Positions 6,145 through 57,100 of a stretch of DNA of 64,000 bases are shown piece by piece; positions within the stretch are counted from its first letter, which is position 1; each line of letters starts with the position of its first letter. The notes under the pieces are model-generated. The model was not told the DNA's origin. It ran no database searches and saw nothing but the letters and a program-made list of their open reading frames with translations. Where the stretch lies: assembly GCA_964019135.1 (NCBI GenBank), contig OZ025255.1, positions 40,516,811 through 40,580,810 of the forward strand, written 5' to 3'. A program made the position numbers and the translations under genes. Source of the DNA: Arenicola marina (Eukaryota; Annelida; Polychaeta; Arenicolidae).

Positions 6145-9100
6145 CTGAAATTAAGGCAGGAGAAAACACAATGTCACCAAACGTATAATTCGTATCTTTA
6201 TATTCGGTTTCTACACTGGAAACAACGGGTTCCGAAAGGCTGTACAGAGTAACGGACACACGTTACGTTGTGAAAAGGATCATTACGAAATACTTCCTTT
6301 ATCAAACAGTTTTTGCAACAATAAAACGCATTTATGTGAGGTAGACGATTTAAAGTTGTTTTGCTGTACGATGATCGATCTCCGTACTGTAGGTTTTAAG
6401 ACACGTAGAATTTCAACCAACGGGGGACAAGCTCTCCCCTCTTTCCGGTCTGAACCGGAGCAAGGTGAACGTATTTTTTCCGATACCATTTCAATCTGTG
6501 ATAATCAGTGTCTATCGTTCTTAACACAGCGGAAATACCTTTTAATTTATCTCTACATGTTATCACCTGTTCCGCATAAAAGCAACTATCCGAGCGCTAA
6601 TTGTAGCCTACACGCACAATGTCAGGCCATTACTGTACCTCGGTGTCGTTGGTCAGCGCGTCTTCCTCAATCTTGGAGGTATCTCTCTTGTTCCTGAGCA
6701 GCAGCGGGTTGTCTCCGATCCGCCTCTGCAGCGGTATACCGTTATTGTCCGCATTGCACGCGTAGCAACCCTCTCCAGGGGGCAGGGGGTTTTGTCCATG
6801 GGGGGCTGGCACGTGGGGAATCTCCACCCCAGGGGGAATGCTGGCTCCCGGCGGGCTGATGGTTGACACACAGTGCCTACAACACAACACGTGTGGACGT
6901 CCAAATGGCTTGATTATCTCTTGCAAGTAAAATATAGTAATATACATATATATATACTAATTACATGTTTAAAGCAATATATCTAACTATATCAAACAAT
7001 GTATATAACTGAGTGAGGGAGCATAACTATATATCAAGCAATGTATACGACTATACATCAAGCAATGCATATATATCAATGCATATGACTAGATCAAACA
7101 ACGTATATAACCATGCATATATCAAACAATGTATATAACTATATATCGAACTGTATAACTAATATATATAACTAATTACTATTTATCTAGAGGTGTAGCT
7201 ATACAAGTACCCACCCCTGGCCGATCCTATGGAACCCGTCCGGACACCCGCACATGAAGCTCTGACCACCTGTTGCCTGGCAACCGAAGGAACAGGGAGA
7301 GCCGCCACAACCACCGCCTCCAAGTCCTTCAAGACGGATGCCGAACATATTTTCATATCGGAAAAAACGAATGTTTCATTTAGCGAAACTATATGGCCGC
7401 AGGTCCATACATAATCCCAACTAATACTAACACATTCCATACCAACCTGTCTCCATATATTATGGGATATTCCCAAGAGCTAATGTCTTACATATGGAGA
7501 TGCCGAATACACAGTTAGAGGAATGTAATGTGCAATTAGTCCTGACCAAACAAAATTACTGTGCGTTACACACTTAAATTCGACTTCGTCGTGAATATCA
7601 ACGCACATTAACAAAGACCGAGACAGTTACCAAAATGATATATTATTGTCTCTTAGTTTATCAATTTTCAAACTTGTTGTGGGTTATACAAATATTTATA
7701 CAAAGGACTTACCCATGCAGCCGAGGTTGAAGTTATCGAAGATCTGACCTGACCCACATCTGCAGGAGTAGCTGCCCGGTGTGTTAATGCAGGCGGCACT
7801 GCCACACATACCAGGCATCATGCACTCATTATCATCTGAAACCAACATCAGTGGGAACGGTCAAGGTTACTTTAGGGTCGAACATTATTCAAATATATAT
7901 TACAACGAGTAGATGTTTATGTCACATTCTTAAAATGTATGCAGGCACAACTCTCAAAGATGTTATATTAATTAAATATAAACAACTATGTTTTCTTTCT
8001 AGATTTAAAAGAAACAGATACTCTTATAGTTTATACTCAGATTCGGGTCCCACAATAAATTGTTTAAATGATGTGCATGCTCTAGTATATTCAGGTCGAT
8101 ATCGCGAGTTACTTACCCATGCATTGGTTCCAGTAGTGTGGGGAGAAGCCGCCAGGGCACTCGCACTTGTAGCCGCCCACCATGTTCTGACACCCGTACT
8201 GACACATCAGGTCGTCATGACACTCGTCCATGTCAACACACCTGTAACCATGGGCATATCACCTTAGTTAACACATCAGGTCGTCATAACGCTCGTTTAT
8301 GTCAAGACACCTGTAACCATGGCCATATCACCTTAGTTAACACATCAGGTCATGACACTCGTCCATGTCAACATACATGTGACCATGGCCATATCACATT
8401 AGTTAACACATCAGGTCGTCAAGGCACTCGTCCATGTCAACACACCTGTAACCATGGCCATATCACCTTAGTTAACACATCAGGTCATGACACTCGTCCA
8501 TGTCAACATACATATGACCATGGCCATATCACCTTACTTAACACATCAGGTCATGACACTCGTCCATGTCAACATACATATGACCATGGCCATATCACCT
8601 TAGTTAACACATCAGGTCGTCAAGGCACTCGTCCATGTCAACACACCTGTAACCATGGCCATATCACCTTAGTTAACACATCAGGTCGTCATGACATTCG
8701 TCTATGTCAACACACCTGTAACCATGGCCATATCACCTTAGTTAACACATCAGGTCGTCATGACATTCGTCTATGTCAACACACCTGTAACCATGGCCAT
8801 ATCACCTTACTTAACACATCAGGTCGTCATGACACTCGTCCATGTCAACACACCTGTAACCATGGCCATATCACCTTAGTTAACACATCAGGTCATGACA
8901 CTCGTCCATGTCAACATACATATGACCATGGCCATATCACCTTAGTTAACACATCAGGTCATGACACTCGTCCATGTCAACATACATATGACCATGGCCA
9001 TATCACCTTAGTTAACACATCAGGTCGTCAAGGCACTCGTCCATGTCAACACACCTGTAACCATGGCCATATCACCTTAGTTAACACATCAGGTCGTCAT

Positions 9101-54100: not shown

Positions 54101-57100
54101 ATAAACATATTCATGTATTCAGCTTATTACGATGCTGCTGAGTCACGTACATTCAATAAATCTATATCATATTCATGTTTTCAGTCTATTAACTTGATAC
54201 ACTAAACGCTGTCGCGATGTATCCAAAAAACCTAGAATATAAACACTGAAATAATGCAAACTAGTCCTTAGTTGATGATTCTTCTAAAGGGAAAATTGGA
54301 CCATTCACTACTCGACCGCGCCAACGATAAGGTTACGACACGATATATCTCTTTACTACCATCACGACATATTGCCAAGCTCTCATTTATAGACATGATG
54401 GCTATATGGTCGTTATAACCATTGTTTAGGCATAGCTCAAGTATCACTCACGCCTACCATATAGTATTACTGTAATTCATTTCGGGGGCATGCACTAACA
54501 TGGAAGCTTGCCCGGGTGTATTGACGGAGCTATATAAAACTCGGTTTAACGACAGTTTATCCAAGTAACCTGGTTGGTATTATGACAATGCACGTGCAAG
54601 GTCAAGGCCAGAACCCTCACCTAGACAGAAGGCGCCATCTGGGGAGATTTTGTATCCAGAGTCGCAGGCACAGACGTATGCTCCCGGTATATTCTGGCAG
54701 CGCCCATGCAGACAAAGTCTGCCGTTCTCTGTACACTCGTCAAGATCTGCAAAGATGAACAGCATAATAACAGCATAATAATTACTTATATCATATATTA
54801 TCCGCAAATTTCTAGATTGCCTTATTTGCGGCTTTATTCACCTTATTTGTGAATAAAGCCGTGTGTTATTATTCTCTTGCACATCCCGGATTTATGCTGA
54901 CCAATTTTGTGATTCGCTATTTTAGTGGCTAACATCAGCAGCCGACTATTTTTGTTGTCTTTCATTTCATAGGCGCTAACGACGCAATCCACAATATTAC
55001 ACATGAATAATATATAGTGTAGCTTAAGTTATAATCCAATATCGAACATGTTGGTTTTGGCCCACACTGAGCACATCCTTAAAAAAACTCGAAACCCGTG
55101 GGAATAATTTGCTTGATTACGGACACATTAGGACAGAAAATGGAGCTCCGGTGACAACTGTCTCAATCAGACTGCAGTGAAAGAAGGTCTTTGTTCGTCG
55201 GAGTTATCGCCCCATGCAAGTCCTATCTCTACCTCTCAGCATAGGAGGGCTAGATTCAGCGTGCCAGGAGAGGATATGACTGTCGACCGCCTCTTAGTTA
55301 ATGCCCGGTCTAGCCTGTGCGTTATTGCTTATTGCCATGAGCCTCTATAACGTTATGGCGGAAGCTTTGAAGTACTCCCGTTTGCCAGGAGGTGAAAAAC
55401 TTATCACCGCTAGTAAAGACAGCCAGCCAGACGAAGAGGCTTTTTGTTTTCACTACCGTGATAGCAGACATTTAAAAACACAGCATCCGTTGCTCTTGAC
55501 ACATTAGAGCACGCAAGGTGTGTTAAGGCGTTGATGGCCTATTTAGTTGATAAATGACCGACGTGGCTTTAACTCACTGGCAGTTCGCTTAAATGCGCGG
55601 CGTCTCGTCTTAGACATCGCCTTCGCGCATGCGCAACCATGCAGGGTTCAGTAACGAGGTCCACGGTGATAAGGTGAGTTTGCATGCACGTTTTGCGCGT
55701 CAGATAAATGCACGGGAAACGTTTTTCTGTCGGTTTATCATGCAAAGACATCAGAAACAGACGGGCCCGGCTACTTGAGAACACATTTAGAGCGACTGCG
55801 ACGGCGAATGTTGTGAGAAGGTACGAAGAACCCGTATAAAACTACTTGCTGTAAAGCTATCCAGAATGATACAGTTCACAGTAAAAGCCGATTTCGAATA
55901 AGTGAATTCGTTGTGAGGAATAAATGAAGGTATTACTGCAACTATCTGTGTACTCATAACCACAAATATTAATGAAACACGAAATGCCACTTTCATTATC
56001 GGATCCGAAAAAATACGTGTTCATTTAATATATTGCACGCAAGAAACCCACGGCGAAGAAAACGTGTTGTGCCTTCTTCATGAGACACCCCCTTTCATGT
56101 AGTCCAAGCCGTCTCTTGTTCCGCTCAGTGACGCAGTCACGGTCCAACATGTACACCGACATGCAAGACACAACTACAGTTGAAGCCCTCACCTATACAG
56201 ATCTGCTGGTTGGGGGACTGTTTGTAGCCCTTCTTGCAGATACACTTGTAGGATCCGTCCATGTTGAGGCAGTCACCGTTGGGACACATACCGCTGTGGC
56301 TGCACTCGTCCATATCTGAAGGAAGGTCCGTCACATCAGAATGATAGCGTCTGAACGATATTTTCGTTAGAATGACCATGCAGCGTTAGCGCGGCACCAA
56401 TGCTGCTAAAAGACACATATTACCCACTGGTATTTTCATTTATGAATTATTATTCTCATTTACATTATTTATTTTGTTGAAGTCTTACTCAGAGTGAAAG
56501 AATACAGTGAAAATCATTATGTGGGGTGCAGGGCGAAGAGTGTGGGGGCAGGGTGCGGAGTGCCGGGCGTGGGGTATGGGGTGCGAAGTGTAAAGTATGG
56601 GTCGTGGATGTGGGATGTGAATGCGTTGTGTGTGGTGTGTGGTAGGGGTGGGATGTGAGGGTGCGAAGTGTAAAGTATGGGTCGTGGATGTGGGATGTGA
56701 ATGCGGTGTGTGTGGTGTGTGGTAGGGGTGGGATGTGAGGGTGTGGAGTGCCCAGTTACTTGTGCAATATGTACTGTCACCATGGTTACTCAACCGTGCA
56801 GCACGTACTGTCACCACGGTTACTCATCCGTGCAGTAAGTACCATCACCACGGTTACTCATCCGTGCAGTAAGTACCATCACCATGGTTACTCACCCGAG
56901 CAGTATGTGCCGTCACTGGAGATTGTGTAGCCTTGGTTACAGACACACCGGAAGCTGCCGTCCGTGTTGACACATCGGCCGTTGAGACAGAGGCCAGTCT
57001 GGTCGCATTCATCCTTGTCTGAAAACAAAATGACGCCTCACCAGATATAACTATACACCGAGATATCAGAAAAGGCGATGAAATGAAAGTGGAACATAAT

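Follow-up and report, generated by a model that had tools for sequence, protein, structure and literature searches.

Structure of the fibrillin gene

In this study, we analyzed a stretch of 64,000 nucleotides (contig OZ025255.1, positions 40,516,811 to 40,580,810), referred to as the window, which carries a fibrillin gene on its minus strand. Several exons of this gene are accompanied by tandem arrays (minisatellites) that start inside the exon and repeat its edge into the adjoining intron. Arrays of this kind have been named "mirage" minisatellites in the Adh3 and globin genes of amphioxus (Canestro et al. 2002, cited through Ebner et al. 2010, PMC3087553). The gene and the arrays in question are the following:

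5547–61871, minus strand: fibrillin gene with 57 modelled exons and an open frame of 2,670 residues; its 5′ end lies beyond the window
56762–56916, minus strand: 34-bp array at the donor of exon 4 (57018–56896), about 21 exon bases copied
53254–53954, minus strand: 57-bp array at the donor of exon 7 (54022–53900), 55 exon bases copied, so that the unit is nearly all exonic
45596–45958, minus strand: 138-bp array with 2.7 copies at the acceptor of exon 9 (45647–45447, TB domain), 52 exon bases copied
42000–43101, minus strand: 45-bp array at the donor of exon 13 (43214–43071, hybrid domain), 31 exon bases copied
20600–21534, minus strand: 30-bp array at the donor of exon 38 (21640–21518), about 16 exon bases copied
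18240–18350, minus strand: 36-bp array at the donor of exon 41 (18466–18341), probable junction copy; the end given by Tandem Repeats Finder (TRF) is 18344
14856–14990, minus strand: 37-bp array in contact with the exon 46 donor, examined as a candidate and rejected
8202–10818, minus strand: 69-bp array at the acceptor of exon 53 (8241–8117), 37 full copies plus the authentic one, 40 exon bases copied

The gene was identified by cysteine patterns of the EGF type all along the minus-strand frame. Pfam reported TB in two of three sample exons and EGF_CA in the third, and the succession of calcium-binding EGF domains with TB and hybrid domains between them is that of a fibrillin. The 57 exons were set by domain ends, splice motifs and phase; they sum to 8,013 bp and are free of stop codons. 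All 56 introns follow the GT-AG rule, and 53 of them are in phase 1, two in phase 2 and one in phase 0. This numbering was made from the sequence and agrees with that of the original prediction, an earlier note on the same DNA. A piece of 161 residues gave a full-length match to human fibrillin-1 (1uzj) with an E value of 4e-56. It contains a TB domain, which we take to be TB4 by the 1uzj structure and the human domain order. In the sequence of the modelled exons, RGD is absent from TB4. The RGD of this domain is described as conserved in cephalochordates and vertebrates, the statement on amphioxus referring to Branchiostoma floridae (PMC3306419). The host may thus belong to a lineage other than the cephalochordates; with RGD as the sole taxonomic hint, we judge the chance of a cephalochordate to be roughly one in three. 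The hybrid domain of exons 13 and 14 has eight cysteines. Exon 51 (12111–11746, minus strand) encodes three calcium-binding EGF domains; the other modelled EGF exons encode one apiece.

Detection of junction arrays

TRF was run on the window and returned 42 rows. Four rows outside the gene (2376, 2686, 3000, 63558), three rows with units below 10 bp (26708, 34746, 38419) and ten rows that merely restate a listed array, in part or with a different period, were dropped. The remaining 25 rows yielded 22 minisatellites with units of at least 10 bp in the gene after 7026/7093/7134 and 20608/21401 had been merged. Ten units were aligned to the exon edge that they touch, with the other edges of the same type serving as controls (56 donors or 57 acceptors). 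For exons 4, 7, 9, 13, 38 and 53, the touched edge ranked first both as a whole and for the exon bases alone. In a second approach independent of TRF, each of 112 edges was represented by its last exon bases (40 at most), which were sought in up to 600 bases of the adjoining intron. The same six exons were recovered with z values of 3.4 to 19.6, the next best reaching 2.1, and the rank among the 56 introns was first for five of them and second for exon 4. Secure junction arrays are thus found at four donors (exons 4, 7, 13 and 38) and at two acceptors (exons 9 and 53). For the array of exon 38, which is represented by the TRF rows 20608–21421 and 21401–21467, TRF stops 50–96 bp before the exon and the reach was determined by alignment. 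The array of exon 41 copies about 10 exon bases with two mismatches; its edge ranked first of 56 and its exon bases alone sixth of 56, and it is a probable junction copy.

Several candidates were rejected. The array at exon 46 overlaps the exon by four bases in TRF, ranked 55th of 56 for the exon bases alone and has AC, GC and GC at the position of the donor GT (0/3). A 46-bp array upstream of the acceptor of exon 37 looked plausible by eye and ranked 17th of 57 in the alignment, while a 22-bp array behind exon 26 begins 28 bp beyond the donor and ranked 19th of 56, so that neither is regarded as a junction copy. The donor of exon 22, which was the next best in the TRF-independent scan and first among the 56 introns, is not claimed either. 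Two further intronic arrays lie close to junction arrays: one with 42-bp units at 52731–53238, 15 bp from that of exon 7, and one with 80-bp units at 56579–56750, 11 bp from that of exon 4.

The original prediction had listed eight junction arrays, six at donors and two at acceptors. Both acceptors and four of the donors are secure and a fifth donor, that of exon 41, is probable, but exon 46 had to be withdrawn. The predicted unit sizes of 30, 34, 36, 45, 57, 69 and 138 bp were recovered as well; the unit at exon 46 is 37 bp and not about 46 bp. The assertion that the splice junction itself is copied holds in full for five of the six secure arrays, whereas at exon 4 the copies contain the exon edge without GT. 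Separate origins had also been proposed. Among the 28 pairs formed by 8 units, the best z value was 2.2, and 3 of 60 shuffles were equally good. The units are mutually unrelated, which supports independent origins.

Splice signals in the copies

Splice signals were counted in full copies, the authentic copy being omitted. GT is present in all 11 copies of exon 7, in all 23 of exon 13, in 26 of 31 of exon 38 (lost in 5) and in both of exon 41, while the three copies of exon 4 have AT, AT and TT at this position, so that the exon edge is duplicated there without a usable donor. On the acceptor side, AG is found in both copies of exon 9 and in 28 of 37 copies of exon 53 (lost in 9). Donors were then scored with a crude donor matrix, and a copy was taken to be like the authentic site if it scored within 1 bit of it or better. 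This applied to 20 of 23 copies of exon 13, 21 of 31 of exon 38 and 8 of 11 of exon 7, and to none of the copies of exons 4 (0/3) and 41 (0/2). Where strength fails to mark the authentic donor, its position beside the intact exon presumably does so.

In the array of exon 53 (8202–10818, minus strand), 37 of 39 rows, one of them partial and one authentic, hold a donor-like AAGGTGATAT behind the copied acceptor. Together with the copied acceptor, AAGGTGATAT might delimit short pseudo-exons that carry stop codons.

Placement of the arrays

The original prediction had proposed randomised placement as a check, and this was carried out within the present gene. In the null model, every array started from the duplication of a single unit-length segment whose position was drawn uniformly along the gene, wholly exonic placements being excluded, and at least 10 exon bases were required for an array to count as edge-spanning. 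Six of the 22 arrays span an edge versus 1.55 expected (P = 0.0027). The excess was also obtained with 15 clusters (P = 0.0017), with 17 arrays of a score of at least 150 (P = 0.0011), by TRF ends alone (5/22, P = 0.015) and with arrays of a score of at least 300, of which 5 of 11 span an edge versus 0.99 expected (P = 0.001). A threshold of four bases gave eight arrays versus 1.84 (P = 0.0002), a count that includes the unaccepted array of exon 46; seven arrays give P = 0.0013. As the gene was chosen for its arrays, these P values cannot represent the genome. No array is wholly exonic versus 2.2 expected at uniform placement. Eight of 14 wholly intronic arrays lie within 150 bp of an exon (P = 0.044), though a test of their median distance fell short of significance (P = 0.056).

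A mutational process aimed at splice junctions, acting for instance via co-transcriptional structures or via microhomology between donor motif and exon, would make arrays commoner at these places, and the excess of edge-spanning arrays, including those of high score, as well as the tendency of intronic arrays to lie near exons point in this direction. However, all this comes from a single gene picked out for its arrays, and the result depends on how prone exon DNA is to form arrays: with exon bases two, three, four and six times as array-prone, P was 0.020, 0.065, 0.14 and 0.33. The excess would be accounted for if exon DNA were duplicated three to four times as often, although a two-fold rate still leaves it significant. 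Moreover, the position of the edge within the unit varies: among the secure six, the exonic share ranges between 52 of 138 bases and 55 of 57 (10 of 36 at exon 41), as random breakpoints would have it. A process favouring splice junctions had been suggested by the original prediction; an approximately four-fold excess in this one gene does not demonstrate it, and we regard it as unlikely.

Chance combined with the choice of the example offers another explanation, according to which a repeat-rich genome would occasionally produce six such arrays among the 112 internal exon edges of a gene. The density of 22 arrays in 56 kb is in line with this, as is the presence of published mirages at several unrelated amphioxus genes (PMC3087553, PMC3902484), but uniform placement predicts far fewer edge-spanning arrays than were found. 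We consider this explanation doubtful, while granting it a real chance.

Constraint, reading frames and turnover

In the copies of exon 13, the first, second and third codon positions show 6, 7 and 6 variable columns, respectively, and stop codons occur in 2 of 24 copies (authentic one included) versus 3.2 expected by random substitution, the probability of so few being 0.34. With no bias in codon position and a neutral number of stops, the 45-bp array was rejected as coding. Divergence within copies was compared for exons 4, 7, 13, 38, 41 and 53. The splice site is more diverged than the exonic part at exons 7 (0.089 vs 0.043), 13 (0.065 vs 0.049) and 53 (0.105 vs 0.052), and the two are nearly equal at exon 41 (0.074 vs 0.083); exons 4 and 38 are considered below. 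Across the six exons, the copied splice sites give no consistent sign of being kept.

Read-through past the authentic donor of exon 13 meets no stop as far as residue 346 from the exon start, with about 300 of these residues inside the array. At exon 7, the frame passes two units and shifts before it ends 38 residues beyond the exon, and at exons 4, 38 and 41 a stop is reached after a few codons. The acceptors of exons 9 and 53 are preceded by 13 and 5 open codons, respectively. Among the donor arrays, long inserts could arise at exon 13 alone.

These data bear on the idea that the copies are functional, either as spare splice sites or, at exon 13, as a ladder of in-frame donors inserting cysteine-rich repeats of 15 residues, in variable number, into the second hybrid domain. 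The unit of exon 13 is a multiple of three, its frame is open over the length given above, GT is retained throughout and most of its donors score like the authentic one. However, its codons evolve as neutral sequence would, the other donor arrays soon run into stops, the acceptor arrays are open over a few codons only, and the copies of exon 4 lack GT altogether. A functional role of the copies appears very improbable. A bolder scenario, distinctly improbable in our view, would be that outside cephalochordates edge-prone duplication wrote dozens of near-identical competing splice sites and that some inner donors of exon 13 are used, adding repeats of 15 residues to the protein.

The arrays also carry traces of their turnover. 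Unit identity in the array of exon 53 peaks at lag 6 (0.966 vs 0.914–0.942 for the remaining lags up to 9), and a period of 408 bp reported by TRF fits a higher-order repeat of six units. This suggests block exchange, which would give such a six-unit period. For the array of exon 7, TRF reported a period of 172 bp, yet the lag identities are without a clear peak (0.904–0.939).

Origin and maintenance of the junction arrays

We consider it likely that separate tandem duplications over single exon edges grew into mirage minisatellites and were tolerated as the outer true site survives. The junction arrays are probably near-neutral for the most part. At every array, the reading frame is preserved when splicing takes the copy that adjoins the intact exon. 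In the proposed mechanism, tandem duplications would arise independently, each over one exon edge, and the arrays would grow by unequal exchange. Splice choice is governed by exon definition and site proximity. By pairing sites across the short exon, the spliceosome would keep the outermost copy, and the remaining copies would be removed as part of the intron, where they could drift and recombine under little constraint. Duplications confined to the interior of an exon would interfere with the protein and be purged, so that exon-derived arrays would survive at exon edges only. The second reading offered by the original prediction, that selection tolerates repeats at junctions since the true site survives, would fit the copies, which show no constraint of this kind.

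Several observations weigh against the favoured explanation of near-neutral edge duplications. The site used at each array is deduced from the reading frame and may differ in the transcript. At exon 38, divergence is lower at the splice site (0.076) than in the exonic part (0.193) and slightly lower than in the intronic part (0.094), and the same holds for exon 4 (0.054 vs 0.133 and 0.071). The unbroken series of GT in the copies of exons 13 and 7 leaves room for mild constraint. The array of exon 4, in which an exon edge is repeated but no usable donor comes with it, slightly lowers our confidence, and the lack of wholly exonic arrays is weak support given the small number expected. Furthermore, periods are a multiple of three in 14 of the 22 arrays between 5547 and 61871 (P = 0.0035, post hoc), an excess that includes wholly intronic arrays and is not predicted by neutrality.

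Further elements in the window

Intron 28 contains a long interspersed nuclear element (LINE) at 26805–30029 on the minus strand, the same strand as the fibrillin gene; its open frame of 1,074 amino acids encodes an endonuclease and a reverse transcriptase (Pfam). An upstream open reading frame of 288 amino acids is located at 30652–31518 (minus strand), and a short run of ATTCA units at 26708–26736 follows the element. A search with a pattern of the LINE protein gave no match in viral contigs and six pattern matches in genome contigs, none of which was confirmed. A dispersed repeat resembling a short interspersed nuclear element (SINE) is present in three copies at 13457–13479 (plus strand), 34396–34418 (plus strand) and 51880–51902 (minus strand). 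The copies differ from a 23-base pattern at 0, 2 and 0 positions, and chance alone would be expected to yield no copy; a SINE-like pattern of 28 letters had no match in viral or genome contigs. Rfam gave no match at the gathering threshold and ARAGORN no tRNA gene. An inverted repeat at 31767–32394 has arms of 240 nt that are 85% complementary and a nested second pair of 44 nt, and looks like a foldback element. In the region of exons 42 and 43, an exact direct repeat of 42 bp occurs at 17441–17482 and 17631–17672, 190 bp apart.

Comparison with known mirage minisatellites

The junction arrays of the fibrillin gene belong to the known mirage kind, as the likeness drawn in the original prediction had implied and as the accounts of PMC3087553 and PMC3902484 support. 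The unit of six arrays spans an exon-intron boundary, 5′ and 3′ boundaries are both affected, and splice signals are present in many but not all copies, exon 4 alone departing from this. In the literature searched, which comprised titles and the beginnings of abstracts and left most subscription papers outside its coverage, no mirages outside amphioxus were found. If it is true that the host is no amphioxus, mirages are wider among animal genomes than this literature says, and the role in intron gain proposed for them (PMC3087553) becomes testable in a second lineage; intron gain by tandem duplication is the subject of a paper on potato (PMC4974935). The large number of authentic-like donors within one native intron, as at exons 13 and 38, furthermore would permit an in vivo test of position versus strength as determinants of splice-site choice.

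In amphioxus, mirage units of 10–72 bp and of 150–160 bp have been described, and many of the copies, though not every one, contain splice signals (PMC3087553). The fibrillin arrays, with units of 30–138 bp, resemble them in forming tandem repeats across 5′ and 3′ exon-intron boundaries and in the concerted evolution of units. In contrast to them, six secure arrays are found in one gene among 57 modelled exons. Splicing and haplotype length were studied in amphioxus, whereas the fibrillin arrays are known from one sequence alone, in which the intact frame of 2,670 residues lends indirect support to undisturbed splicing. In the lancelet gene PGBD5, imperfect tandem repeats of 60 bp and 108 bp are located at or over splice sites and hardly affect protein homology, and troponin C is cited as a further case (PMC3902484). 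Splice-site position and barely affected protein homology are shared by the fibrillin arrays, but PGBD5 has two arrays with 2 to 7 copies and the fibrillin gene up to 37 full extra copies. In human genes of segmental duplications, internal tandem repeats at exon-intron boundaries may alter splicing or form introns (PMC2812944). The fibrillin arrays are likewise minisatellites at exon-intron boundaries; the human cases include transcripts with changed gene structures, whereas the open frame of the fibrillin gene would argue for unchanged exons.

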